Shown: piece after piece, positions 1-12,018 of the stretch | How the letters are laid out: the number at the start of each line of letters is the position of its first letter | Position numbering within the stretch: the stretch's first letter is position 1 | DNA from: Pseudobdellovibrionaceae bacterium | Lineage (GTDB): Bacteria; Bdellovibrionota; Bdellovibrionia; Bdellovibrionales; UBA1609 | Length of the DNA: 64,000 bases | NCBI GenBank assembly: GCA_023954155.1 | Contig: JAMLIO010000008.1 | Location: forward strand, 69,229 to 133,228 | Direction of reading: 5' to 3' | Notes under the pieces: generated by a model | Databases searched by the model: none | What the model was told of the DNA's origin: nothing | Seen by the model: the letters and a program-made list of their open reading frames with translations, nothing else | Made by a program: the position numbers and the translations under genes

Positions 1-30
1 AAACCTAAGGCTCAAACTGTAGACGCTTAA
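1..30 (+). CDS. C-terminal end of an upstream gene (partial), possibly TolQ/ExbB-like
   Basis: The first 30 bases read as nine sense codons (KPKAQTVDA) followed by TAA in frame 1. The rest of the gene lies outside the window. In Agl/Tol/Exb loci a TolQ/ExbB/MotA-like membrane protein usually comes directly before the two TolR-like genes, so that is the likeliest identity. This is inferred from context only; nine residues cannot identify a family. A small inverted repeat (142-147 with 155-160) lies in the 156-base spacer before the next gene but has no T-run, so read-through is plausible. Confidence 0.35.
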   Translation, partial: KPKAQTVDA

Positions 31-186
31 TTTAAAACGAAAAAGGCCTATATGTGTCTAAAAGACCATGTGGGTGAAGGTCTAAGGAAGTATCTCTCAC
101 GGTTCAGTAAAAAACTTAAGAGATACAAGAAGAGAGAGTAAGAGCTTAAAAATCAAGCTCAAAAAAACGTCCTAGAGGGGTGTAAG

Positions 187-651
187 TTGAAAAGAGATAA
201 GAAAAACCTAGATGTGGAAGTGGATTTAGTATCCTTTATTTCGCTACTCTCAGTATGTATCTGTTTCTTGCTATTAACAGCAGTGTGGATACAAATTGGT
301 TCTCTTAATGTAAAGCAAGCAGTAGGTGGTCAGTCTGCAGCAGAAACTAAAAAAGTTCCTGCAGTGTGGACGCAGATGCAGAAAGATGGAAGTTTGGTTC
401 TTAAATTTCAAGATTTCCCCAACACAGCTTTACGTTCTTTAGGGAAGCAAACTGTAGTGAATCCTGGTGAAGAAGGAAAAATCAATTATGAAGAGCTTGA
501 AGCCAAGCTCGCCTCTTTAATCAAAGTGGTTCCAGACCTTAACACAGGTTTGATTTTACCTTTAGGTGACACAGAATACGAAAATGTCATCCAGCTTATG
601 GATAATTTAAAAAAATCAGGGCTTACTAACTTAGGCGTATCTCCGCTTTAA
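187..651 (+). CDS. ExbD/TolR-family stator protein lacking the channel aspartate
   Basis: 154 residues with a short charged cytoplasmic N-terminus, one membrane helix at about residues 14-36, and a periplasmic domain, as in ExbD/TolR. These proteins pair with a TolQ/ExbB channel and transmit proton flow to envelope machinery. TTG start, chosen because AGAGGGG lies just upstream (about 174-180). When the helix is aligned to the TolR pattern E-x-N-x-x-P-L-x-D, Glu11 matches the Glu but the normally essential Asp is Ser19 (EVDLVSFISLL). It is therefore probably a structural rather than proton-carrying partner of the next gene. The two genes are 19 bases apart. Family certain; role in a gliding-type motor inferred. 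Confidence 0.82.
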   Translation: MKRDKKNLDVEVDLVSFISLLSVCICFLLLTAVWIQIGSLNVKQAVGGQSAAETKKVPAVWTQMQKDGSLVLKFQDFPNTALRSLGKQTVVNPGEEGKINYEELEAKLASLIKVVPDLNTGLILPLGDTEYENVIQLMDNLKKSGLTNLGVSPL

Positions 652-670
652 AAAGGAATGAGGGGTAATT

Positions 671-1168
671 GTGGCAGAAAGTGTTTTAGAACAAACAAGT
701 TTAAACAGTCCTATTGAAGGAAGCTCAACGCTAAATCCAAAAGGACAAAGGTTCAAAAAGAATCTAGTCCAAACGGTGATGTTGACTTCACTAGTAGATG
801 CCTTTTCAATTCTAGTGGTTTACCTGCTGATGAGTTATAGCAGTTCTGGTGAGATCATGTACATCTCTAAGGACATGGTGTTGCCCACGGCTATGGAAGC
901 AGAGACTTTAAACCGTCAAATCACCATTAAATATGAGGATGGTAGCTACTTCGTTGAAGACATTCAAGTGACTAAGGATGAGCTATTCCCAACCTTACTA
1001 AAAATGAAATTAGACTTTAAAGAAAAGTATCCTGAGTTGGATTCAGAAAACCAAATCATTATCCAAGCGGATAAGGGCGAGAAGTTTATTGATTTAAATT
1101 GGATCATTCATGCCAGTGCACAAGCAGGTTTTGAAGAGATTAAATTTGCGGTGTTGACTGCAGGGTAA
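671..1168 (+). CDS. ExbD/TolR-family stator protein with channel aspartate
   Basis: 165 residues: a 30-residue cytoplasmic lead, one membrane helix at about 36-56, and a periplasmic domain of about 100 residues. The helix carries SLVDAFSILVVYLL, with Asp43 at the position of the proton-accepting Asp of TolR/ExbD. This copy can thus carry the ion-flow function that its upstream neighbour seems to have lost. GTG start at 671, preceded by AATGAGGGG. The two paralogues together resemble AglQ/AglS of the myxobacterial gliding motor, which also uses two TolR-like subunits per locus. The following gene begins 11 bases downstream, so co-translation is likely. Confidence 0.85.
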   Translation: MAESVLEQTSLNSPIEGSSTLNPKGQRFKKNLVQTVMLTSLVDAFSILVVYLLMSYSSSGEIMYISKDMVLPTAMEAETLNRQITIKYEDGSYFVEDIQVTKDELFPTLLKMKLDFKEKYPELDSENQIIIQADKGEKFIDLNWIIHASAQAGFEEIKFAVLTAG

Positions 1169-1178
1169 GGGGACATAG

Positions 1179-4100
1179 ATGAAACAAGGGTTGATTTTCA
1201 GTCTTTTAGCGATCTTGATGATGCCTACTGCACACGCATCAATGGATGAGGCCACTCGTGAACGTCTAATTGAGAAGTTCACTAAGGTTTACCAGCAAAT
1301 CGCTGATGAAGAAGAGGCTAAAGTGAATGTGACACTCAGATTGGGTGACATGTTGGCTGAAAAAGGTCGTGACCTTGCCAATAAAGAATTAGGTGAAGGT
1401 TGTGGGGTTTGTACTGCGGGTGATGAACCTCGAAAACAGGCTCTAAGATATTATAGCGAGGCTGTGGGATTCTTAAAAGATGACAGAAAAGCTTCAGTTC
1501 AATTGCAAATGGGACACTTACAAGAGCTTTTAGCACTAGAATTAGACGCTATTAAGTCCTATGAGTCTGTCTTTAAAAATGCAAAAAATGAAAAGCTCAC
1601 GGCAGAAGCCAACTTTTCATTAGGTGAACTTTATTTTAAGAAAAGAAACTTTCCGTTAGCTGCATCCTACTTTCTAAAGGTGATGAATGCTTCAGACGGT
1701 GTAGGTAGAAAAGGTCTTTCTGCTTATAGAAAAGCATGGTGTGAGTTTAATGCTGGGAACTACTCTAAAGGCACAAATGAACTTGTAACGATATTGCAGT
1801 CACCCAAGTTTTTAACTCGTTCTGCGGATACAGGCGTTGTTTCTGTGGATGAAGAGTTTAAAGATGAGATCACTAGAGACCTAGTGGTTTTTATGGTTAA
1901 ACGCGGCTACCAAGCTAACGATTTTGACGTCATTTATAAATTAGGAAAAGACGACACAAAGATTGATCACTTGACCAACTTTGCTGAAGAGTTAGAGCGA
2001 CTAGGTGAAGTGAACAACTCTATTGAAGTTTGGAACAAATTATTAGGAAAATTAAAAGACCCTATTCAAAAATGGGGTGGACAAGTCAGATATGCGAACT
2101 TGTTAAGAGAAAATAAAAAAATCGAAGACTCTTTAAAAGCCTTTGACCGTGCGTTGTCTTTTGGGGCGGGTCAAGATTCATGTCAAACAGACACATGTAA
2201 AGAAATCAGACTTAGAGAAAGAAAGTATGTTTTAGATTGGCATAATAGCATTAAGAAGAATCCTACCGAGGATCTTTCTAAGGCTTATGCGATTTATAAC
2301 CGTTATAATAAAAACGAGCCTGATATGATGTATTGGGCGGCTGAAATTGATTTGACTCTTAAAAAACCAAAAGAAGCTTTTACTGGTTTTGCTAAAACTG
2401 TAGAAATTTATCCTAAAGCACAAGCTGAAGATGAAAAGAAACAAAAAGAGTTAGCCCAAATGTATGAGGCTTCTTTGCTTAAAAGAATCGAGATTGCGGA
2501 AGATCAAAAACTTCCTGAGCTAGCAAAAGTGTATGAAGCTTACTTAGCGGGCTCTAAAGATAAAGCTCAAGACGTCAAAGTGAAGTATCAATTGGCGCGT
2601 TTGGCTTATGACAATAAAGACTACATCAAAGCTTTTAATCAGTTTAAAGATTTTGCGATAAAAACTAAATCTACTGATGCTGAGGATGTTAAGCTAAAAG
2701 AACAAGCGGCGGATTTGGCGTTAGACTCTTTGGTTCTAGCTAAAAGAGATGATCTTATGATCTCTGCTGCAGAAGAACTTTCAGAAGCTCTTCCGCAAAA
2801 ATCAGCAGAATACCAAGGTATTGTTCGTAAGGCTGTGATCAACCAGTCTTTAGAATTAGCACAAGATAATGGTGGTAAGGCTCAGGCAGGAAGTAAAAAG
2901 GCCTTAGACTTACTTAAAAAAGCGGATTTTAGTGGTGCTACAGAACAAGAAAAAGAAGTGATTTTAAAGAACAAAATCATTCTTGCTGAACAGATGGGTC
3001 AGATCAGTGAAGCTATTGGTTATGTGAATCAATACCTCACTTTACCGAAGCTCTCTAAAGAAAATCAGCAGTTTGCATACACTAAAAAAGCATGGCTATC
3101 AGAGCTTGTATTTGATTTTTCTGGCGCACTAGAAGCCACAAAAAATATTGAAAGCTTAAAAGAGCCTGCACGTACATTACAATTAGCGCTTTTAACGGAT
3201 TTAGCTGGCGGAGATTCTTCTGTTCTGTTTAAAGAGTATATTGAGAAGAACCCTAAAGCCGCTGAATCTCCAGAAATGGCTTTAGACCTTATTAAGAAAT
3301 CAAATGCGGCGTGGGCAGAGTTTAATAAATACAAAACTGTATTGGAAAGTAATCCTGCACTTTGGAAAGACGCTTTGCTGGTCTCCTATGAACAGAATCC
3401 TTCTTTACCAGAGCTTGCTAAAGTTCTGAAATGGAACGAAACGGATAAGAAGTTCAGAGTTGAAATTTTACAGACTCAGATGATCAAACCTGAAATTGCC
3501 ACTCGTGCTCAAGCTTTAGCGGCGATGGCAGTGGATACAGAAGATCAAAACAAAATGGGCAAAGACATTCAAGCAAGAACCAAAGCCATTAAAGATTATG
3601 AAGCCTTTGTGGCCGACATCTTAAAAGCGGATATTTGGTTTGGACAAGTCTATGCTCTTGATGTTTTGGCTAAAGAATCACAAAGATTCTATGAAGAGGT
3701 GATGAGCCTTCCTATTCCAGAGGAACTGACTCCAGAAGAGCAAAACCAGTATATGAACTTACTGGCTCAAAGTGCTTCTCCATACCAAGCTAAAAATCAA
3801 CAGATCACAACAAAGCTTGCTGAGATTTGGAACGAAAAGAAGGCCGTAAAATCTGTGTTCTCTGAATTAGGTAAACAGCCTAAGTGGGTGCAAAACCTTT
3901 GGGTGAAAGAATATCAAGACCTAGCAGGTGTCGCTCCTAAGGAGTTCAACACTTTCGTGGCTTCTGAAGTGGGCAAGTTCCAAGGTGCTGAGGTTGTAGT
4001 GGCTAAAAAATCTGCGGATGTTCCTTTGAAAGACATGATGAAGGTGCGCTCCAAAGTTATGGCTGAGCCTTTTAACAAAGGTGTCTTAGGGCAATTATTA

Positions 4101-4196
4101 GATATCGAAAAACAAAGAAAACAAGACAAGATGGTCATTTATTTAGAACAAAGACTATCAAAGATTGATCAATTAAAAGGTGGGGTAACGAAATGA
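1179..4196 (+). CDS. Large periplasmic tetratricopeptide-repeat protein
   Basis: 1005 residues beginning with a signal peptide (cleavage plausible after THA-SMDEA, near residue 20). The body is almost entirely paired amphipathic helices; TPR-like units such as GELYFKKRNFPLAASYFLKV recur. A Cys pair (GCGVC) sits near residue 75 and another (CQTDTC) in the middle. Such long TPR solenoids act as periplasmic scaffolds; in the Glt gliding machinery TPR proteins bridge the inner-membrane motor and the outer membrane. ATG start behind AAGGGGACAT. It is translationally coupled to the next gene through an ATGA overlap at 4193-4196. The repeats are clear; the Glt-like role is inferred from neighbours. 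Confidence 0.75.
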   Translation: MKQGLIFSLLAILMMPTAHASMDEATRERLIEKFTKVYQQIADEEEAKVNVTLRLGDMLAEKGRDLANKELGEGCGVCTAGDEPRKQALRYYSEAVGFLKDDRKASVQLQMGHLQELLALELDAIKSYESVFKNAKNEKLTAEANFSLGELYFKKRNFPLAASYFLKVMNASDGVGRKGLSAYRKAWCEFNAGNYSKGTNELVTILQSPKFLTRSADTGVVSVDEEFKDEITRDLVVFMVKRGYQANDFDVIYKLGKDDTKIDHLTNFAEELERLGEVNNSIEVWNKLLGKLKDPIQKWGGQVRYANLLRENKKIEDSLKAFDRALSFGAGQDSCQTDTCKEIRLRERKYVLDWHNSIKKNPTEDLSKAYAIYNRYNKNEPDMMYWAAEIDLTLKKPKEAFTGFAKTVEIYPKAQAEDEKKQKELAQMYEASLLKRIEIAEDQKLPELAKVYEAYLAGSKDKAQDVKVKYQLARLAYDNKDYIKAFNQFKDFAIKTKSTDAEDVKLKEQAADLALDSLVLAKRDDLMISAAEELSEALPQKSAEYQGIVRKAVINQSLELAQDNGGKAQAGSKKALDLLKKADFSGATEQEKEVILKNKIILAEQMGQISEAIGYVNQYLTLPKLSKENQQFAYTKKAWLSELVFDFSGALEATKNIESLKEPARTLQLALLTDLAGGDSSVLFKEYIEKNPKAAESPEMALDLIKKSNAAWAEFNKYKTVLESNPALWKDALLVSYEQNPSLPELAKVLKWNETDKKFRVEILQTQMIKPEIATRAQALAAMAVDTEDQNKMGKDIQARTKAIKDYEAFVADILKADIWFGQVYALDVLAKESQRFYEEVMSLPIPEELTPEEQNQYMNLLAQSASPYQAKNQQITTKLAEIWNEKKAVKSVFSELGKQPKWVQNLWVKEYQDLAGVAPKEFNTFVASEVGKFQGAEVVVAKKSADVPLKDMMKVRSKVMAEPFNKGVLGQLLDIEKQRKQDKMVIYLEQRLSKIDQLKGGVTK

Positions 4197-4423
4197 GGAT
4201 ACTAATCGCAATTCTATTGTCACTGAGCTTTGCAAGTGTAGGTTTGGCAGCTCCCAAAAAGAAATCAACAGAAGTCAGTTTTGATGAGCTGTTGATTCAA
4301 GGTCAGTACCACTTTTCTGATGAGATCGTAACTACAGTGGAACAAGATAAAGTTTTGGACGCGTTACTAGGTTTAAGAAAAGACTTTAAAGATAAAATGA
4401 AAAGATCGGCAAGTAGGTACTAA
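4193..4423 (+). CDS. Small exported protein of the envelope-machine operon
   Basis: 76 residues starting with a signal peptide (cleavage about residue 20, GLAAPKKK). The mature part is about 56 residues, charged and likely helical, with FDELLIQGQYHFSDE and a basic C-terminus. It overlaps the TPR gene stop by ATGA and lies four bases before the TonB-like gene, so it is embedded in the operon. I do not recognise a family. A small exported protein in exactly this place between the TPR scaffold and the AgmX-type protein suggests an accessory subunit of the same complex. Expression is supported by coupling and an intact frame; function is unknown. Confidence 0.65.
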   Translation: MRILIAILLSLSFASVGLAAPKKKSTEVSFDELLIQGQYHFSDEIVTTVEQDKVLDALLGLRKDFKDKMKRSASRY

Positions 4424-4426
4424 CAC

Positions 4427-5575
4427 ATGAAGAATTTATGTTTAAAAAATAACGAAGGAAAGGTAGTCAGACTGATACCTGTAGATGCGGTGGACGAGAT
4501 CTTAGTTGTAAGATCCCCATTGGATCAGCGGTTATTGTTTCGACCTGCTTATGAGCAAGAGCTTCTTGAGTCTGAAGGCTGGGAAGTTCTAAAGAAATTT
4601 TCTAGTGAACAGGCTTTAAAGTCTCCTATCGTCTTAACGCCACAGTTATCTTTGGCAGCTTGTGATACAGACGAAGTGATCGTGAATTCTGCTATCTCTG
4701 AAGAAGATAACAGAACGTGGAAGATTTCTGCTATTTCTACTTTGCTTTTGGGTTTTTTACTGATGGTGGGTGTTTTGAGAATGCCTGCTCCAGAACCCCA
4801 AGAAATCAAAGAAGAGCAAAGACAAGAAGTGGTAAAGATTGTTAAGTTGCAAAAACCAGAGCCAATTAAAATTAAGAGCACGCATACAACCACAACGACT
4901 GTGACTCAAACTCCAACAACGAATGCTCCCAAAGTCAGATCCACTCAAACCATTAAAAGAATGGGAGCGTTGGCTGCTTTGGGCAATGCGACCTCGAACA
5001 ATGGTCAGCAAGGTGGTTTAGATTTGGGTGCGGTTAAGACATCAGCAGGTCCTGGACTTGGTGGTGGTACTGAAGGAAGTGGCGGAGTGCAAACTTCTTT
5101 ATATGGTAAAGGCATTGTCTCTGCTCCTGTAGGCGTAGGTGGAAACTTGCAAGGTGCTGGTGGATACGGAACAAAAGGTAAAGGTGGTGGCCAAGCAGGT
5201 TACGGAACGTTATCTTTAGTAGGTTCATCTGGAGCTTCAGTGATTCCAGTCGGTGAAGAAGTCATCGCTGGTGGTGGATTAGATCAAGGCTTAATTTGGG
5301 ATGTGATCCGTAGAAACTCTGGTCAAATCCGTTTTTGCTACGAGCAAGGACTACAATCTGATCCTAATCTTAAAGGGCGTGTTGTGACGGATTTCACCAT
5401 TGGGTCCAATGGACAGGTGACATCTTTAAAGATCGCAAACACAACCATCAATTCAAAAATTGTTGAAGACTGTATTTCTCTTAGAATTAAAGCTTGGAAA
5501 TTTCCATTACCTGAGGGCGGAAAATCAGTCAGCGTTAAAGTTCCATTTAATTTAAACAGACAAGGAAGGGGTTAA
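4427..5575 (+). CDS. TonB-like trans-envelope protein with AgmX/PglI C-terminal domain
   Basis: 382 residues in four parts: a cytoplasmic N-domain (about 1-98), one membrane helix (about 100-118), a Pro/Thr- then Gly-rich periplasmic linker (about 119-280), and a C-terminal domain (about 285-382). The C-domain has RRNSGQIRFCYEQGL, GRVVTDFTI and a second conserved Cys in VEDCISLRI. This is the AgmX/PglI tail found in GltG/GltJ of the Myxococcus gliding complex and related to TonB tails. The architecture fits a protein that spans the periplasm and contacts an outer-membrane partner when driven by a TolQR-type motor. It follows the small exported gene by 4 bases and precedes a lipoprotein. Confidence 0.82.
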   Translation: MKNLCLKNNEGKVVRLIPVDAVDEILVVRSPLDQRLLFRPAYEQELLESEGWEVLKKFSSEQALKSPIVLTPQLSLAACDTDEVIVNSAISEEDNRTWKISAISTLLLGFLLMVGVLRMPAPEPQEIKEEQRQEVVKIVKLQKPEPIKIKSTHTTTTTVTQTPTTNAPKVRSTQTIKRMGALAALGNATSNNGQQGGLDLGAVKTSAGPGLGGGTEGSGGVQTSLYGKGIVSAPVGVGGNLQGAGGYGTKGKGGGQAGYGTLSLVGSSGASVIPVGEEVIAGGGLDQGLIWDVIRRNSGQIRFCYEQGLQSDPNLKGRVVTDFTIGSNGQVTSLKIANTTINSKIVEDCISLRIKAWKFPLPEGGKSVSVKVPFNLNRQGRG

Positions 5576-5578
5576 TCT

Positions 5579-6991
5579 GTGAAAACAAAACCTTTATTAT
5601 TAACATTACTAGCCGTACTTGGATTGGGCGTATCTTGTAGTTTTTCAAACGACCCTTTTGAAGACTATGATGATTCTATCCGCGAGGCCACTGTTGAAGA
5701 GACTAAGCCTCCTGTGCCTCCAGGGATCAACTCAAATTCAGTTTTGATCAATCCTTCTAAGCATGTATTTCTTTTTACAGAAGGAGTGCAATCTGCTTAT
5801 GAAGTGGAAGCTAAGGTCTTTATTCCAGACGCCGAATTCACTATGGAGCTTGTTGATCCGCCTCCAGGGATGACCATTGAGTTGGTGACAACAGCTGCTG
5901 ATGACTTGGCTGCTACTGGGCCTGTGTTACCTGGCGATACTGATGCTGATGCTGATGTGGCTGATGAAGATGAAGTGGTTGTGCCGCCTCCATCAAACTT
6001 GAATAGAAAAGTTTTTGTGATCAAGTGGCAACCAGACCATAACACAATCACTGATGATAATATTGGCAGTATCGTAAAACACATTTCAGTCAGAGTGCTT
6101 GTAGATGATGACATTCTTGTTCCCAGAGAGATCCCTTATGTGGTCTTCCAAAGCGAAAAAGAACTTAAGGTCACCTCAGCAGATATTCCCAATGAATTTC
6201 TTGAAGGTGAAAAGACACAGTTTAAAGTTTATGTGGATTATCCAAACTTTATGGGATCAAAATTCCCAGCTATGGCTGTGTTCACTAAAGGGAACTCTTC
6301 TGGTGTTGTGACAGATGGTTGTGCCAACCTACAAAATTGGATTAAAACTACAGGGCAAAAGCTTATCAACGATCCTACTGACCCTAATAACGGGAAGATC
6401 GAATACACTTTTGAAGCGAACTTCACAAAATTAGATATCACAACGTCAAGAACGACTTGTACTATTGAAGTGAAAGTCAGTGACACAAGAAACGTTTCGG
6501 CTCCTTACGAAATTGCTCTACGCGTGAAGAACACGATTAAAGCTCCAAAAACATCTTGGAGTGAGTCTATGGTGTATGAGTTACAACAAGGAACACAAAC
6601 CATTGTGCCTTTCTTCTTCTTTGGAATTCAAGACGAAGGAACTGTAGAGCTTACTTTTGAAACTCCTTGCATCACACTTTTTGGTGGAATGTTAGATTGT
6701 TCTTGTAAACAAGAATCAGGGGTTAGCAACCGTCATATTCTTAACTGTACAATTTTTGGTACGCATAAGGTATTTGACCGTGCAGTAGAGTACAACTTGG
6801 TCATGAAAGCTAAGGTCAAAAACCTAAGTGAAGAGTCTGAGCAGATTACATTTAGAAGAAAAATTAAATTTTATCCTCCTGGCACAAAAGCAGACAACTC
6901 AATTGGAGTCGGCATGGGCGAAGACAGTGGTTCAGCAAATGCTAACCCAAGTCCAGTTATGGATACTAATAACTACGGAGGAGGAATCTAA
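5579..6991 (+). CDS. Lipoprotein of the envelope-machine operon, beta-rich
   Basis: 470 residues. The N-terminus is a lipoprotein signal with lipobox LGVSC (Cys20), followed by an acidic stretch and then beta-rich sequence that could form Ig/cadherin-like modules. An Asp/Ala-rich insert with ADADVADED lies near residue 120. Two Cys-rich spots near the C-terminal third may form disulfides. GTG start three bases after the preceding stop; the stop overlaps the next start (TAATG at 6989-6993). No family is recognised with confidence. By position it may be the outer-membrane lipoprotein partner of the following barrel, as GltK is thought to be for GltA/GltB; this is inference. Confidence 0.65.
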   Translation: MKTKPLLLTLLAVLGLGVSCSFSNDPFEDYDDSIREATVEETKPPVPPGINSNSVLINPSKHVFLFTEGVQSAYEVEAKVFIPDAEFTMELVDPPPGMTIELVTTAADDLAATGPVLPGDTDADADVADEDEVVVPPPSNLNRKVFVIKWQPDHNTITDDNIGSIVKHISVRVLVDDDILVPREIPYVVFQSEKELKVTSADIPNEFLEGEKTQFKVYVDYPNFMGSKFPAMAVFTKGNSSGVVTDGCANLQNWIKTTGQKLINDPTDPNNGKIEYTFEANFTKLDITTSRTTCTIEVKVSDTRNVSAPYEIALRVKNTIKAPKTSWSESMVYELQQGTQTIVPFFFFGIQDEGTVELTFETPCITLFGGMLDCSCKQESGVSNRHILNCTIFGTHKVFDRAVEYNLVMKAKVKNLSEESEQITFRRKIKFYPPGTKADNSIGVGMGEDSGSANANPSPVMDTNNYGGGI

Positions 6992-7671
6992 TGAAAAAGT
7001 TAATACTGATTTTAGCGACTTGGATGGGATTGAGTGCATCCGCTTTGGGTTCTGAAATTTTAAAAGATTTTGACTCTTTAGGTGGAAACGCAGACATTTA
7101 TGAAAAGACAAGTGCTTTGAATCCAGAGATTAAAACTCAAGTGATTCAAAACAGAATCGTAAATCGTAGAATGCGTTTTGAACTTTCTCCTTCAGTGACT
7201 TCATTTTGGGGTGGAAACCCTTACATGAAAACAAGCACTGTGGGCTTGGATGTGAACTTCCATCTAACACCTAGATGGTCTATCGGTGTGGCTTATAACT
7301 TTCATGCCATGAACGAACTTTCTGGTGAAGGTGATAGAATGATTCGCATTGATAGCCGCGTTCAGGATGTGGACTATCTTAAGCAAAGTGTACTTGCCAA
7401 AGTATCTTACTACCCATTTTATGGAAAACTAAACTTATTTAACAATATTGTTCACTTTGACATCTATACATCTTTAGGTGGTGGAACTGTGATGCTAAGA
7501 CATGGCAACCAACAAGCTTTAGCGGCTGACATTGGTCTGGCCGTTTGGTGGAGCCAACATTTAACAACACGTATAGGTTACCAATACATGACTTATGAAG
7601 CGCAACTTTTAAATGGACCAGTAAGACTGGATCTGTCTTCAGCTGTGCTTTCTGTGGGGTATTTACTATGA
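6991..7671 (+). CDS. Outer-membrane beta-barrel protein
   Basis: 226 residues with a signal peptide (cleavage near ALG-SEI), an N-terminal soluble stretch of about 40 residues, then alternating amphipathic strands (FELSPSVTSFWGGNP, LDVNFHLTPRWSIGVAYNF, TRIGYQYMTYEAQLL) ending in SVGYLL with a C-terminal hydrophobic residue, typical of small OMP barrels. It resembles the outer-membrane beta-barrel family found in myxobacterial gliding loci (GltA/GltB type). It overlaps both neighbours by one to four bases (TAATG, ATGA), so co-translation is strong. Probably the outer-membrane channel or anchor of the complex. Barrel assignment is firm; homology to GltA/B is inferred. Confidence 0.75.
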   Translation: MKKLILILATWMGLSASALGSEILKDFDSLGGNADIYEKTSALNPEIKTQVIQNRIVNRRMRFELSPSVTSFWGGNPYMKTSTVGLDVNFHLTPRWSIGVAYNFHAMNELSGEGDRMIRIDSRVQDVDYLKQSVLAKVSYYPFYGKLNLFNNIVHFDIYTSLGGGTVMLRHGNQQALAADIGLAVWWSQHLTTRIGYQYMTYEAQLLNGPVRLDLSSAVLSVGYLL

Positions 7672-9275
7672 TAAAGTCACTACAATATGTACTGGCAGCA
7701 CTGTTGTGCATGCCGCTCACTTGGAATGCGGCCTATGCTGATGATATTATCAATCTCTTAGGTGGAGCCAAAGACGAGGTTAAGATTGGTCAAGATACAA
7801 GCTTAACTCAGCAGCTTCGTAAAGCGGTGGGATCTTTGACGGCAGAACAGACCATCCTATTTAACTTTATCGACAATAAAGAGTTTAAAAAAGCTTTTTA
7901 TCAATGGGGTGCTGCTTTTGATGGTAAAACCTTTGAAAGATCGGCTACAGGCCAAGCTTTAAAAGCGTATTTATTTTATAAAGTAGGTCTTGAGATCAAT
8001 GGTCTTGAGATGCTTATGCAAATCAAAAATCCTGAAGCGATTCACTCTGAAATGGTGGCCTTCTGGAAAGAAGCTGCTCCTGTAGATTCTAAAGCGTGGA
8101 AGCTTGCGGATTTTGATTGGAACCCAAAATGGACTAATATTTTTGGTCGCGATGCTGAGGTTCAAGTCAGAAGTCGTAAGGTGTTTGATGCGTCTAATTA
8201 CGCTCAGATCGAAGAGCTTTTAAGAAAATCTAAAGAGAACACTGAAGAAAGAGCGTGGTTAGAGTGGCAATTGGCTCTTTACTTTGCACTTAATGATGAT
8301 GCGGGTAAAGGCGCTCAGGTACTAAGCCTATTGATGAAGGAAAAGCAAAACTTCATCGATCATGACCTAATGAACATTACAGCAGCTAGAATGCTTTATG
8401 AAAAAGGCTATCTTGATGCTGCAATCAAGTACTATAAAGAAGTTCCAAAAAAATCTGACTATTGGACAGAAGCTCAAGAAGAGATGGCGTGGTCTTATAT
8501 CAGAAAAGGTGAACCGCAAAACACAATGGCTGTCACAAAGTCCCTTGTTCACCCTGCATTTAAATCTTTAATTGGACCAGAGACTGTGTTTTTAAGAGCA
8601 CTTTCTCAACTTAAGGTTTGTGATTACCAAGGTGTAGCGCAATCTCTAGAAGACTATAAAACGTTTTTTAGACCTAAAGCTGCGAACCTTCAAAAGTTAC
8701 AAACTGATGATGTTGAGCCCATCGACTTTTTCTACAAAAGCATTCAAGAAAAAGGCCGTATGCCACTTAAGAGTTTAAAAACTTATGCAGCTAAACTTCC
8801 TAGATATATCACTCGAGATGAAGTGTTATATCGCTTGGCTCAAAGATCTGCGGGTTTAGAGACAGAGTCTAAAATTGCACTCGATCTTTACACTCAAAGT
8901 CTACAAGGTGGAACGGCTAAAGTGGGCTTCCAAGCTGATATTGATAGAGTGAAAGTGGCAACAAAAGATAAATCTCAAACTGCAAAAAATGCCTTTTACA
9001 GCCGTGTAAAGAGATTGGCTGATGAAGAAGTAACGGAGATTGGTCAAATTCTGCAAAAGATGCACATCGTTGAAGCCGAGCTTTTACAGCAGATTTCAGT
9101 TTCAAGTGCCATTGCAGCGACTGACAAAAAAGACATTGATGAGAAAAAAGGAAGTACAGGTGCTGAAGGACGTGATGTCTTAAAGTTCCCTGCCTCTTCA
9201 GAAGTTTGGTTTGATGAAATTTCAAACTTTAAGATCGATGTGAAAAAAGGGTGTCAAATATCTACTAAAAAGTAG
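7668..9275 (+). CDS. Periplasmic helical-repeat (TPR-like) protein
   Basis: 535 residues with a signal peptide (cleavage near AYA-DDI, about residue 24) and an all-helical body. Units such as YEKGYLDAAIKYYKEVPKKSDYWTEAQEEMAWSYIRKGEP are TPR-like. A single Cys lies mid-protein (KVCDYQG) and another near the C-terminus (KGCQIS). The start overlaps the stop of the barrel gene by ATGA. In Glt loci a TPR protein (GltC) accompanies the GltA/GltB barrels, which makes this a plausible functional analogue. The last member of the strictly overlapping gene run; the VWA lipoprotein follows 20 bases later. Confidence 0.65.
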   Translation: MIKSLQYVLAALLCMPLTWNAAYADDIINLLGGAKDEVKIGQDTSLTQQLRKAVGSLTAEQTILFNFIDNKEFKKAFYQWGAAFDGKTFERSATGQALKAYLFYKVGLEINGLEMLMQIKNPEAIHSEMVAFWKEAAPVDSKAWKLADFDWNPKWTNIFGRDAEVQVRSRKVFDASNYAQIEELLRKSKENTEERAWLEWQLALYFALNDDAGKGAQVLSLLMKEKQNFIDHDLMNITAARMLYEKGYLDAAIKYYKEVPKKSDYWTEAQEEMAWSYIRKGEPQNTMAVTKSLVHPAFKSLIGPETVFLRALSQLKVCDYQGVAQSLEDYKTFFRPKAANLQKLQTDDVEPIDFFYKSIQEKGRMPLKSLKTYAAKLPRYITRDEVLYRLAQRSAGLETESKIALDLYTQSLQGGTAKVGFQADIDRVKVATKDKSQTAKNAFYSRVKRLADEEVTEIGQILQKMHIVEAELLQQISVSSAIAATDKKDIDEKKGSTGAEGRDVLKFPASSEVWFDEISNFKIDVKKGCQISTKK

Positions 9276-9295
9276 TGAAGGATTAGGAAAAGAAT

Positions 9296-10426
9296 ATGAC
9301 TTTAAAACTTAAAAGTGCATTTCTAGCTTTAATTTTAATGGGTGCAGGAGGTTGCTACTCAAGTGATCACACCCTTGTCCCCAAGCCACCACCAGAAAGA
9401 AAAGTCCTCGAAGAGAGCTATGCTGTAAAATACCAACCTATGGTGGACATTCTATTCGTGGTGGATGACTCAGGAAGTATGGGTACGCATCAGCAGAACT
9501 TAGCTACTAACATTTCTAAGTTTACTGCAGCGATGGAGAAGAATAAATTTTTAGATTATCATATTGGTGTTGTATCTACGAGTATGGATAAGCCTGCGCT
9601 TGCGGGTGTCCTGAGAGGCAATCCTAGTTTTGTGACCCGTGAAACGGATTTTGTGTCTCAATTCTTAGCCAAAAATATTACAGATCTAGGCACTAGTGGG
9701 GATTACATTGAAAAGATGGCTGACCCTATTTATGTGGCTTTGGGACCTAACACAGCTCAAATCAACCCTGGTTTTTTAAGACCTGAGGCCTTTCTAGTTG
9801 TGATCCTGATCACTGATGCCGAAGAACAGAGTGAGCTTGTTACAAATTATAAAGCTTACGATACCATGCTGCGCTCTAAGTCGGGGGATGAAAATAAGGT
9901 TCTAGGTTATGGCGTGCTTTCTTACCCTGATCTTTTCGGTGATCGTTGTGCTTCTGATGGTAATGGGCAGCCTGTGATCAATGAGATGTTTATGTCAATG
10001 TTTAGCAATGCCCATAACTCACTGGTGTCTACAAATACCCCAGGGCCTCTTCCTGGATCTAGAAATATTTTAACAAATATATTTAGTTTGTGCGATGCGG
10101 ATTATGGTCAAAAATTAGCAAATATTGGGGAAGACATTCGTATCCGTGTTTCTAGAAAGTTACCTTTGCCTCGGTTACCCGTCAGAGGAACTATACACCT
10201 TAAATATGGTACACAGTTTGTGGACCCCAAGTGGTGGAAGTATGATCCTACCTCACAAAGCTTGATTCTTCTTCCAGGTATTGAGCTGGTAGAAGAAGAA
10301 GGTGCCCAGTTTTCCGTTGTGTTAGATCAATCTAACCCTAACGAAACTATCGGTGTGCCACCTGAAGGTGAAGTTGTGGGTGGTGGAATTACTTTTATGA
10401 ATTCTCCTGCAGATCAAGAAGAGTAG
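9296..10426 (+). CDS. VWA-domain lipoprotein, copy 1
   Basis: 376 residues. Lipoprotein signal with lipobox GAGGC (Cys20), a proline-rich linker, then a von Willebrand A domain with the MIDAS motif VVDDSGSMG (D-x-S-x-S) and a later Asp in VILITDAEEQ. After about residue 285 comes a conserved tail (LPRLPVRGTI, VDPKWWKYD, IELVEEEGAQFS). VWA domains bind metal and protein ligands; on a lipoprotein it may sit at the outer membrane and act as an adhesin or docking part. It follows the TPR gene by 20 bases and ends in a strong terminator at 10482-10507, so it probably closes the operon. A close paralogue follows. Confidence 0.85.
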   Translation: MTLKLKSAFLALILMGAGGCYSSDHTLVPKPPPERKVLEESYAVKYQPMVDILFVVDDSGSMGTHQQNLATNISKFTAAMEKNKFLDYHIGVVSTSMDKPALAGVLRGNPSFVTRETDFVSQFLAKNITDLGTSGDYIEKMADPIYVALGPNTAQINPGFLRPEAFLVVILITDAEEQSELVTNYKAYDTMLRSKSGDENKVLGYGVLSYPDLFGDRCASDGNGQPVINEMFMSMFSNAHNSLVSTNTPGPLPGSRNILTNIFSLCDADYGQKLANIGEDIRIRVSRKLPLPRLPVRGTIHLKYGTQFVDPKWWKYDPTSQSLILLPGIELVEEEGAQFSVVLDQSNPNETIGVPPEGEVVGGGITFMNSPADQEE

Positions 10427-10481
10427 TTGTTTAGGAGTCGGGAGGACATTTAAAATTTAGCTCAAATTTTATAAGCAACTG

Positions 10482-10512
10482 AAGCTGCCAGTGAAAACTG
10501 GCAGCTTTTTTA
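10482..10512 (+). terminator. Rho-independent terminator after VWA gene 1
   Basis: A perfect 11-bp stem (AAGCTGCCAGT with ACTGGCAGCTT) around a GAAA tetraloop is followed by a run of T. It lies 56 bases after the VWA stop and probably ends the envelope-machine transcript. Confidence 0.9.
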
Positions 10513-10535
10513 TTTAAGACGCTGCGTTTTGAAAC

Positions 10536-10615
10536 CTAGACCTTAGATGAGTTTTTGTCGCCTGCACATTTGTGCAGTCCTTTGTATTGAAGCTAGACCT
10601 TACAGATTCTGTAAG
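10536..10615. repeat. Repeat and palindrome cluster upstream of the second VWA gene
   Basis: A 10-base direct repeat CTAGACCTTA occurs at 10536-10545 and 10593-10602. Between and after are two palindromes: CTGCACA-TT-TGTGCAG at 10562-10577 and CTTACAGA-T-TCTGTAAG at 10599-10615. Together they fill the spacer between the terminator and the second VWA gene and may hold operator sites. Function is not established. Confidence 0.5.
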
Positions 10616-10686
10616 CCGCTGAGGTGAGATTGTACAATGTTATAAAAATAGTCATACTTGAAAAGGATAAGCAGCAAGGGGGGCAC

Positions 10687-11784
10687 TTGAAATTTAATTC
10701 CATTTTTAATTTTCTATATATAAGTGGTTTTTTGACTCTCATCTTAGGGTGTTACGCCAGTGATCAGACTTTAGTTCCTAAACCACCCTATGAACCCACT
10801 TCCATTCAAGAAGGGTACAATATTAAATTTGAACCCAAGGTTGATATTGTATTTGTCGTGGATGACTCGGGAAGTATGTACACCCATCAAAGAAACCTCT
10901 CTACAAACTTAGGGCTTTTTACGGGTGCAATGGAATTGAACAAATTTTTAGATTACCACATTGGTGTGATGAGCACGTCCACAGACAGTTGGAGTTGGTC
11001 CTCTACCGTCCCAGGTAAGTTGCAGGGTACCCCACACTTTGTGACTCGTGAGACGCCCCAAGGTTTAATGACTTTGCAAAGAAACATCGAGGCTCTTGGA
11101 ACAAGTGGATCAGCAACAGAGCGTATGTTTGATCCTCTTTATGCGGGTCTTGTGCGTGACCGCGATAAGATCAACCCTGGCTTCTTAAGACCCGAAGCCT
11201 TTTTGGTGGTGATCCTTGTGACAGATGCTGAAGACCAGAGTGCTCTGATCTCGGGATCAAAAGTCTATAACGAGCTTTTGCGCTTAAAATCTGGAGATGA
11301 AAAGAAACTATTAGGTTACAGTGTTTTGGCCTACCCCAACTTTTTTAACGATCGTTGCTCTCAGGACGGTTGGGAAGATCCTACTGAGGTCGTGAAGTTT
11401 ATGTCTCTCTTTTCAAATGTCTATAACTCTCGCATTTCAGGTACATCAAACACCAGCTCGACGGGTGCGTTACAGCCAACAAATATATTCAGTTTATGCG
11501 ATAACAGTTATGGTCAAAAGCTCTCTAATATTGGGGAAGACATTCGTTATAGAGTGTCGCAAGTTTTACCTCTTCCACGACTTCCAGTTAGAGGCACCAT
11601 CCGCTTAAAATATGGCAGTAACTATGTCGACCCTAAGTGGTACAAGTATGACCCGACAACACAAAGCTTAATTTTACATCCTGACATCGAGTTGATCGAA
11701 GAAGAAGGGGCTCAGTTTTCTGTAGAGATGGACCTTTCTAATCCTGATGAAACGATCGGTGCTCCGCCTCCAGGTGAATTGTAA
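10687..11784 (+). CDS. VWA-domain lipoprotein, copy 2
   Basis: 365 residues from a TTG start at 10687, selected because AAGGGGGGC lies just upstream (10676-10684) and it gives a standard lipoprotein signal with LILGC (Cys22). A GTG at 10624 in the same frame would add an unlikely charged lead. Domain order is as in copy 1: linker, VWA domain with VVDDSGSMY and VTDAEDQ, and the same tail (LPRLPVRGTI, VDPKWYKYD). The two copies align end to end with only short indels, so they are a tandem duplication that has diverged. It has its own upstream region after the terminator of copy 1, so it may be regulated separately. Confidence 0.85.
   Translation: MKFNSIFNFLYISGFLTLILGCYASDQTLVPKPPYEPTSIQEGYNIKFEPKVDIVFVVDDSGSMYTHQRNLSTNLGLFTGAMELNKFLDYHIGVMSTSTDSWSWSSTVPGKLQGTPHFVTRETPQGLMTLQRNIEALGTSGSATERMFDPLYAGLVRDRDKINPGFLRPEAFLVVILVTDAEDQSALISGSKVYNELLRLKSGDEKKLLGYSVLAYPNFFNDRCSQDGWEDPTEVVKFMSLFSNVYNSRISGTSNTSSTGALQPTNIFSLCDNSYGQKLSNIGEDIRYRVSQVLPLPRLPVRGTIRLKYGSNYVDPKWYKYDPTTQSLILHPDIELIEEEGAQFSVEMDLSNPDETIGAPPPGEL

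Positions 11785-11941: not shown

Positions 11942-12018
<77 letters not shown>

Follow-up and report, generated by a model that had tools for sequence, protein, structure and literature searches.

The closest described relatives of the system treated here are the Agl/Glt gliding machinery of Myxococcus xanthus, whose core complex (the Group B genes) consists of AglR, AglQ, AglS, GltC, GltD, GltE and GltG and whose genes lie in three clusters (M1, G1 and G2) without a VWA gene inside (PMC3169522), and the motor clusters of Bdellovibrio bacteriovorus. VWA lipoproteins have been connected to gliding in both: CglB and CglD act in M. xanthus (PMC4488436, PMC13104615), and the VWA gene bd3099 has been named among the gliding genes of B. 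bacteriovorus (PMC9140294). A review of 2026 regards the motor, the adhesins and the force path of Bdellovibrio gliding as a major open challenge (PMC13104615). Here we describe an Agl/Glt-type motor operon that ends with a VWA lipoprotein gene and lies at the start of a 64,000-nucleotide stretch, referred to as the window, from a Pseudobdellovibrionaceae bacterium (GCA_023954155.1, contig JAMLIO010000008.1, positions 69,229 to 133,228). The cluster itself and VWA lipoproteins in gliding are already known; in the open papers searched we saw no statement that one subclass of these motors has, as its conserved and translationally coupled last gene, a VWA gene that belongs to a clade of its own.

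Counterparts in B. bacteriovorus

The window is part of contig 8 of a 2.44 Mb genome that is 99% complete, and close relatives from database searches are labelled Bdellovibrionaceae or Bdellovibrionales. This genome carries four clusters that combine ExbB-ExbD-ExbD genes with an AgmX tail, and four are also found, at 0.39, 0.79, 1.40 and 2.28 Mb, in the HD100-type genome used for comparison, which we take to be that of B. bacteriovorus HD100. Their positions fit the published clusters bd0412-0420, bd0828-0838, bd1473-1483 and bd2368-2377 (PMC2797640, PMC3169522), locus tags having been assigned from gene order. The window operon corresponds gene for gene to the cluster at 2.28 Mb, which gave the better match than the cluster at 0.39 Mb wherever BLAST found both, so that, judged by sequence and gene order, it is orthologous to bd2368-bd2377. 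Both consist of ten genes in the order ExbB-ExbD-ExbD-TPR-CglF-GltG-lipoprotein-outer-membrane barrel-GltC-VWA, and lengths are similar (GltC-like protein, 535 amino acids (aa) in the window vs 534; TPR protein, 1005 vs 996). They differ in that only the window has a second VWA gene, located behind a terminator, and the identities are mostly 30–57%, the two organisms belonging to different families of the order.

On this correspondence the terminal VWA protein would be Bd2368 and the numbering would run up to ExbB as Bd2377, a mapping supported by the secretion-signal marks published for Bd2369, Bd2370, Bd2373 and Bd2374 (PMC12546842), which fall on the GltC-like, barrel, CglF-like and TPR proteins. 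In the proteomic data of that study, Bd2368-Bd2375 and Bd2377 are increased by 2.1–3.2 log2 units at prey exit, a step that requires gliding (PMC9140294). The bd0411/0412-bd0420/0421 cluster has the same order with the VWA gene last and represents a sister subtype among the VWA-tailed motors, but its GltC-like protein is shorter (358 aa), its VWA protein longer (423 aa) and the identity lower; it peaks early in prey (PMC12546842). The other motors of the window genome are without an integral VWA gene.

Linkage of motor and VWA genes

About 30 loci of the Bdellovibrionales and one Bacteriovoracaceae contig share this gene order, and because of this recurrence the arrangement is far beyond chance. 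A preliminary description of the window, made from the sequence alone, had considered operon order and VWA tail to be novel and had proposed a synteny comparison across the Bdellovibrionota. That comparison revealed a conserved order, already published for B. bacteriovorus (PMC2797640, PMC3169522, PMC12546842), and novelty of the order is therefore rejected; nor are VWA proteins in gliding new in kind (PMC4488436, PMC9140294).

In a survey of 290 genomes of the phylum, based on the best 150 GltG-like and the best 150 VWA matches, at least 117 of the 150 GltG-like matches (in 91 genomes) have a VWA match 2.8–4.4 kb downstream on the same strand, a lower bound as contig ends also reduce the count. 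A motor tree built on ExbB, both ExbD proteins and the AgmX tail separates the VWA-tailed motors from those of the bd1473/C7/C1 and bd0828/C2 types (C1, C2 and C7 are clusters of the window genome) with ultrafast bootstrap support (UFBoot) of 100, the backbone nodes within the VWA-tailed side being weak (28–54%). In the VWA tree all 50 tail VWAs fall into a single clade (SH-like support 0.998), together with five non-tail sequences, two of which begin near the edge of the fetched stretch so that their upstream neighbours are outside the view. Bd1483, a putative Bd0875 (assigned from position and length) and a putative CglD-like VWA protein of Hyalangium are placed outside this clade. The deep motor subtypes, bd2368-like and bd0411-like, carry corresponding VWA subtypes, which argues against VWA swapping.

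The VWA gene is also tied to the operon at its junctions. The median gap between the GltC and VWA genes is -4 bp, and of 43 VWA genes 17 are followed by a terminator-like hairpin, as against 0–1 of 34–39 for each other operon gene, counts that include near-identical loci and are thus not fully independent. Taken on these sequence comparisons, the VWA tail is an ancestral part dedicated to its motor subtype and not an odd add-on.

Relation to the Agl/Glt machinery

The preliminary description had proposed kinship with the AglRQS-Glt complex, and profile searches against the Glt subunits bear this out, as the AgmX tail, the barrel (above its cut-off) and the GltC-like TPR protein are all related to their counterparts (Table 1). 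The operon shares with M. xanthus an AglR/Q/S-type motor, a TPR protein in the GltD position, a GltF/CglF-like protein, a GltG-like tail, a barrel and a GltC-like protein (PMC3169522), and differs in having the VWA gene inside. An ExbB-like and two ExbD-like proteins are encoded in one unit, as in the Agl/Glt core complex. The match to the GltC model, which covers the C-terminal half, is also obtained with the relatives of the window protein. The weak match of the 76-aa protein to the CglF model is strengthened by its aligned orthologs, 14 of 20 of which match that model (best 2.6e-7). The assignment of the 1005-aa protein is based on TPR repeats and syntenic position; its TPR similarity is unspecific and no GltD-specific model was matched.

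The GltG-like protein has a short cytoplasmic domain, one transmembrane segment, a Gly-rich linker and an AgmX/PglI (TonB-like) tail that scores 100 bits against model NF033768 (cut-off 40). FHA domains are present in the GltG-like proteins C2 and C7, two of the three paralogs in the window genome, and in those of the bd0828 type, unlike in the window subtype. In GltG-like proteins of the VWA-tailed type, a small conserved N-terminal cytoplasmic domain (pattern LVLEN..G.VVR) stands where FHA would be, possibly a degenerate FHA domain.

The scores lie far below the equivalog cut-offs (in bits: GltG 125 vs 650, GltC 55 vs 450, CglF 17 vs 90, CglD 37 vs 400). Hyalangium versicolor, used as myxobacterial positive control, scored far higher with the same models (GltG 1072 over the full length, GltE 757, CglF 142 bits), and we therefore consider the window proteins to be relatives and not equivalogs of Glt subunits.

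Structure models were made for proteins of the window and of its related loci. For the lipoprotein preceding the barrel, AlphaFold2 predicts Ig-like beta-sandwich domains strung together in a chain, with a predicted local distance difference test score (pLDDT) of 73 and a predicted TM score of 0.49. Foldseek relates this lipoprotein to the Ig chains of titin, cadherin and ICAM at the level of fold only (TM score 0.16–0.35), no function being named by this similarity.

The VWA lipoproteins

In VWA1, the last protein of the operon, and its relatives, the lipobox cysteine and the DxSxS motif of the metal ion-dependent adhesion site (MIDAS) are invariant, and VWA1 also has the downstream T/D metal site and the VWA fold expected of a MIDAS adhesin. 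In its structure model (pLDDT 82) the VWA domain is inserted into a small beta domain, and a Foldseek search of the PDB with this model returned integrin beta headpieces, at the level of the domain (TM score about 0.4). Such a protein may be displayed on the surface and adhere in a metal-dependent manner. The described MIDAS adhesins Bd0875 and Bd1483 (PMC11003981) likewise have a lipobox and a VWA/MIDAS domain that interrupts a small beta-rich domain, but the tail VWAs form a separate clade and match the MIDAS adhesin model only weakly.

The preliminary description had treated both VWA lipoproteins as surface parts of the machine. They are likely to be surface parts, but only VWA1 precedes the strong 12-pair hairpin with a T-rich tail, and with this terminator and a gap of 197 bp in between we rejected VWA2 as an operon member. 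Because a terminator-like hairpin precedes it, VWA2 is probably a separate transcription unit. A start of VWA2 at the TTG at 10687, which follows AAGGGGGG and gives 365 aa, is more likely than one at the GTG at 10624. VWA1 and VWA2 are 61% identical, and each shares about 22–41% with its relatives, from which we conclude that the pair arose by duplication within the lineage; tandem VWA genes also occur in three other genomes of the phylum. The VWA profile has 12 matches in HD100 and 18 in the window genome. The latter, among them very long reading frames on contig 11 (1261 and 1358 aa), suggest a VWA expansion in the window genome.

Function and alternative explanations

We favour, with a probability of roughly 65%, an Agl/Glt-type motor that is driven by the proton-motive force, is orthologous to bd2368-bd2377 and has its own integrin-like MIDAS adhesin at the cell surface. 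An inner-membrane stator of the ExbB5-ExbD2 type would drive the GltG-like coupler, whose TonB tail would reach through the wall to a periplasmic assembly of TPR proteins, lipoprotein and barrel. The 1005-aa TPR, GltC-like and CglF-like proteins and the Ig-chain lipoprotein would bridge the periplasm and pass the force on to the OMP_myx barrel. The VWA/MIDAS lipoprotein could then grip a substrate or a prey-derived surface by metal-dependent catch and release, and the moving complexes, gripped at the surface, would push the cell along. Gliding, force path, surface display and adhesion in this organism are thus predicted from its genes.

Several points weigh against this interpretation. The organism is uncultured, and as to motility and lifestyle it is known from its genome alone. 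No window protein reaches a Glt equivalog cut-off with the NCBIfam profiles, a domain profile search found no FHA domain in the GltG-like protein, the TPR lipoprotein GltE, which the Hyalangium control has, was not found in the operon or related loci, and counterparts of GltH, GltI, GltJ and GltK were not found in the operon. In addition, bd0828-0838 and bd1480 (of bd1473-1483) are also tied to gliding or attachment, so that a motor of the window type may not be the main gliding motor. A mutant lacking bd1483, which encodes a MIDAS protein and is located next to a different motor cluster, showed no phenotype in predation (PMC11003981).

Of the other explanations, the one we take most seriously, although it is unlikely, is that the motor serves to move or export a polymer of the cell surface, in the way that Nfs does with AglRQS in spore coat assembly of M. 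xanthus, the VWA protein holding the polymer or other surface material. Agl-type motors are versatile (PMC3858216), core complexes are found in non-gliding bacteria too (PMC3169522), and with four clusters in the window genome some may serve purposes other than gliding. Yet the operon is without a gene for polymer synthesis or export, the orthologous cluster peaks at a gliding-dependent step, and a MIDAS lipoprotein suits adhesion more than polymer handling. It is still less probable that the genes encode a Tol- or TonB-like envelope system for outer-membrane stabilisation, energised uptake or secretion, without a role in movement. The logic of ExbB, ExbD and a TonB tail is common to such systems, and the predatosome study left uptake or secretion open (PMC2797640), but GltC-, CglF- and GltG-type parts and an OMP_myx barrel are companions of the Agl/Glt type, the operon has neither a TonB-dependent receptor nor Pal/TolB, and a dedicated VWA lipoprotein would be unexpected.

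VWA genes are common in both genomes, as the profile counts given above show, and the VWA gene might be a mere passenger unrelated to the motor. We reject this as highly improbable in view of its linkage at near-constant distance and strand, the shared clade and the translational overlap with the GltC-like gene; the terminator follows the VWA gene, and its ortholog is upregulated along with the motor.

Returning to the adhesin-bearing gliding motor, the status of the VWA gene as an ancient, dedicated motor part suggests the tail VWA as a candidate for the gliding adhesin still sought in Bdellovibrio. The co-inherited gene points to concrete candidates, Bd2368 and its counterpart in bd0411-0421, and the pairing bears on whether distinct motors use distinct grips at different steps of predation. 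More tentatively, and with the odds slightly against it, the Bdellovibrionota may possess an ancient class of motors, each with an integrin-like VWA protein as obligate last subunit, with bd2368-2377 and bd0411-0421 as separate motor–adhesin pairs for prey exit and for the time after entry, and with these VWA proteins as the missing gliding adhesins. MIDAS gene deletions have been published for bd0767, bd0875, bd1483 and bd3132; deletion mutants of bd2368-2377 studied for gliding were not found in the open literature searched.

Operon layout and neighbouring genes

The operon begins upstream of the window, as its ExbB/TolQ-like gene reaches only to base 30. All genes named in the preliminary description (two for ExbD proteins, those for the TPR, small exported, TonB-like, lipoprotein, barrel and TPR-like proteins, and two VWA genes) are present and intact at their places. 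Its statement that most overlap by one to four bases holds for three junctions, TPR/small protein (4 bp), lipoprotein/barrel (1 bp) and barrel/GltC-like (4 bp), while five junctions within the operon are gaps of 3–20 bp; ExbB and the first ExbD gene are separated by 156 bp.

Table 1. Features of the motor operon and its surroundings (window coordinates).
Feature	Position	Strand	Basis
ExbB/TolQ/AglR-like motor gene, 3' end	1..30	+	233 aa, remainder upstream (L009:9558-10259); TolQ 3.1e-22, ExbB 1.9e-16
ExbD/TolR-like stator protein 1 (AglQ/AglS-like)	187..651	+	PF02472 9.2e-14
ExbD/TolR-like stator protein 2 (AglQ/AglS-like)	671..1168	+	PF02472 1.6e-9
Exported TPR protein, 1005 aa, GltD position	1179..4196	+	TPR_2 5.2e-7; position from synteny
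Exported CglF/GltF-like protein, 76 aa	4193..4423	+	NF033764 0.0037; ortholog matches
GltG-like putative trans-envelope coupler	4427..5575	+	NF033760 3.7e-36, NF033768 5.3e-29; alignment
Ig-chain lipoprotein, 470 aa	5579..6991	+	Conserved lipobox Cys20; AlphaFold2 model; Foldseek
Outer-membrane beta-barrel, GltA/GltB position	6991..7671	+	TIGR04565 (OMP_myx_plus) 1.8e-22, exceeds cut-off
GltC-like periplasmic TPR protein	7668..9275	+	NF033756 4.6e-15, C-terminal half
VWA1, MIDAS lipoprotein, terminal operon gene	9296..10426	+	Invariant lipobox Cys and DxSxS; model; Foldseek
Intrinsic-terminator-like hairpin at operon end	10481..10508	+	12 pairs, then TTTATTT
VWA2, duplicate of VWA1 past terminator	10687..11784	+	Reading frame open from 10624; 61% identity to VWA1

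A tRNA-Met gene (11942-12018) lies immediately 3' of VWA2. In four loci from one family of the order (L053, L054, L056 and L059), about seven conserved genes (approximately 127, 200, 285, 240, 340, 165 and 430 aa) follow the VWA gene.

The region upstream of ExbB was searched for a conserved gene, which the window type lacks; only clusters of the bd1473/C7 type have one, encoding a GYF_2-PilZ protein directly upstream of ExbB, as in the window genome (C7, L011:12769-13353), HD100 (L075:17727-18347) and loci L201, L129 and L079. The domains were confirmed in the first two (PilZ 5.3e-10 and GYF 8.1e-7 in the window genome), and the other three resemble them by the start of their sequences. This protein is a possible reader of c-di-GMP or cGAMP. 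In the C1 cluster, a third motor cluster of the window genome (L012:11043-13446), genes for a degenerate VWA-like lipoprotein of 440 aa and a lipoprotein of 332 aa are located divergently beside the ExbB gene. The window genome also encodes an MglA-like GTPase with a TVPGQV motif (C3:247165, L219), similar to the one in HD100 (L220).

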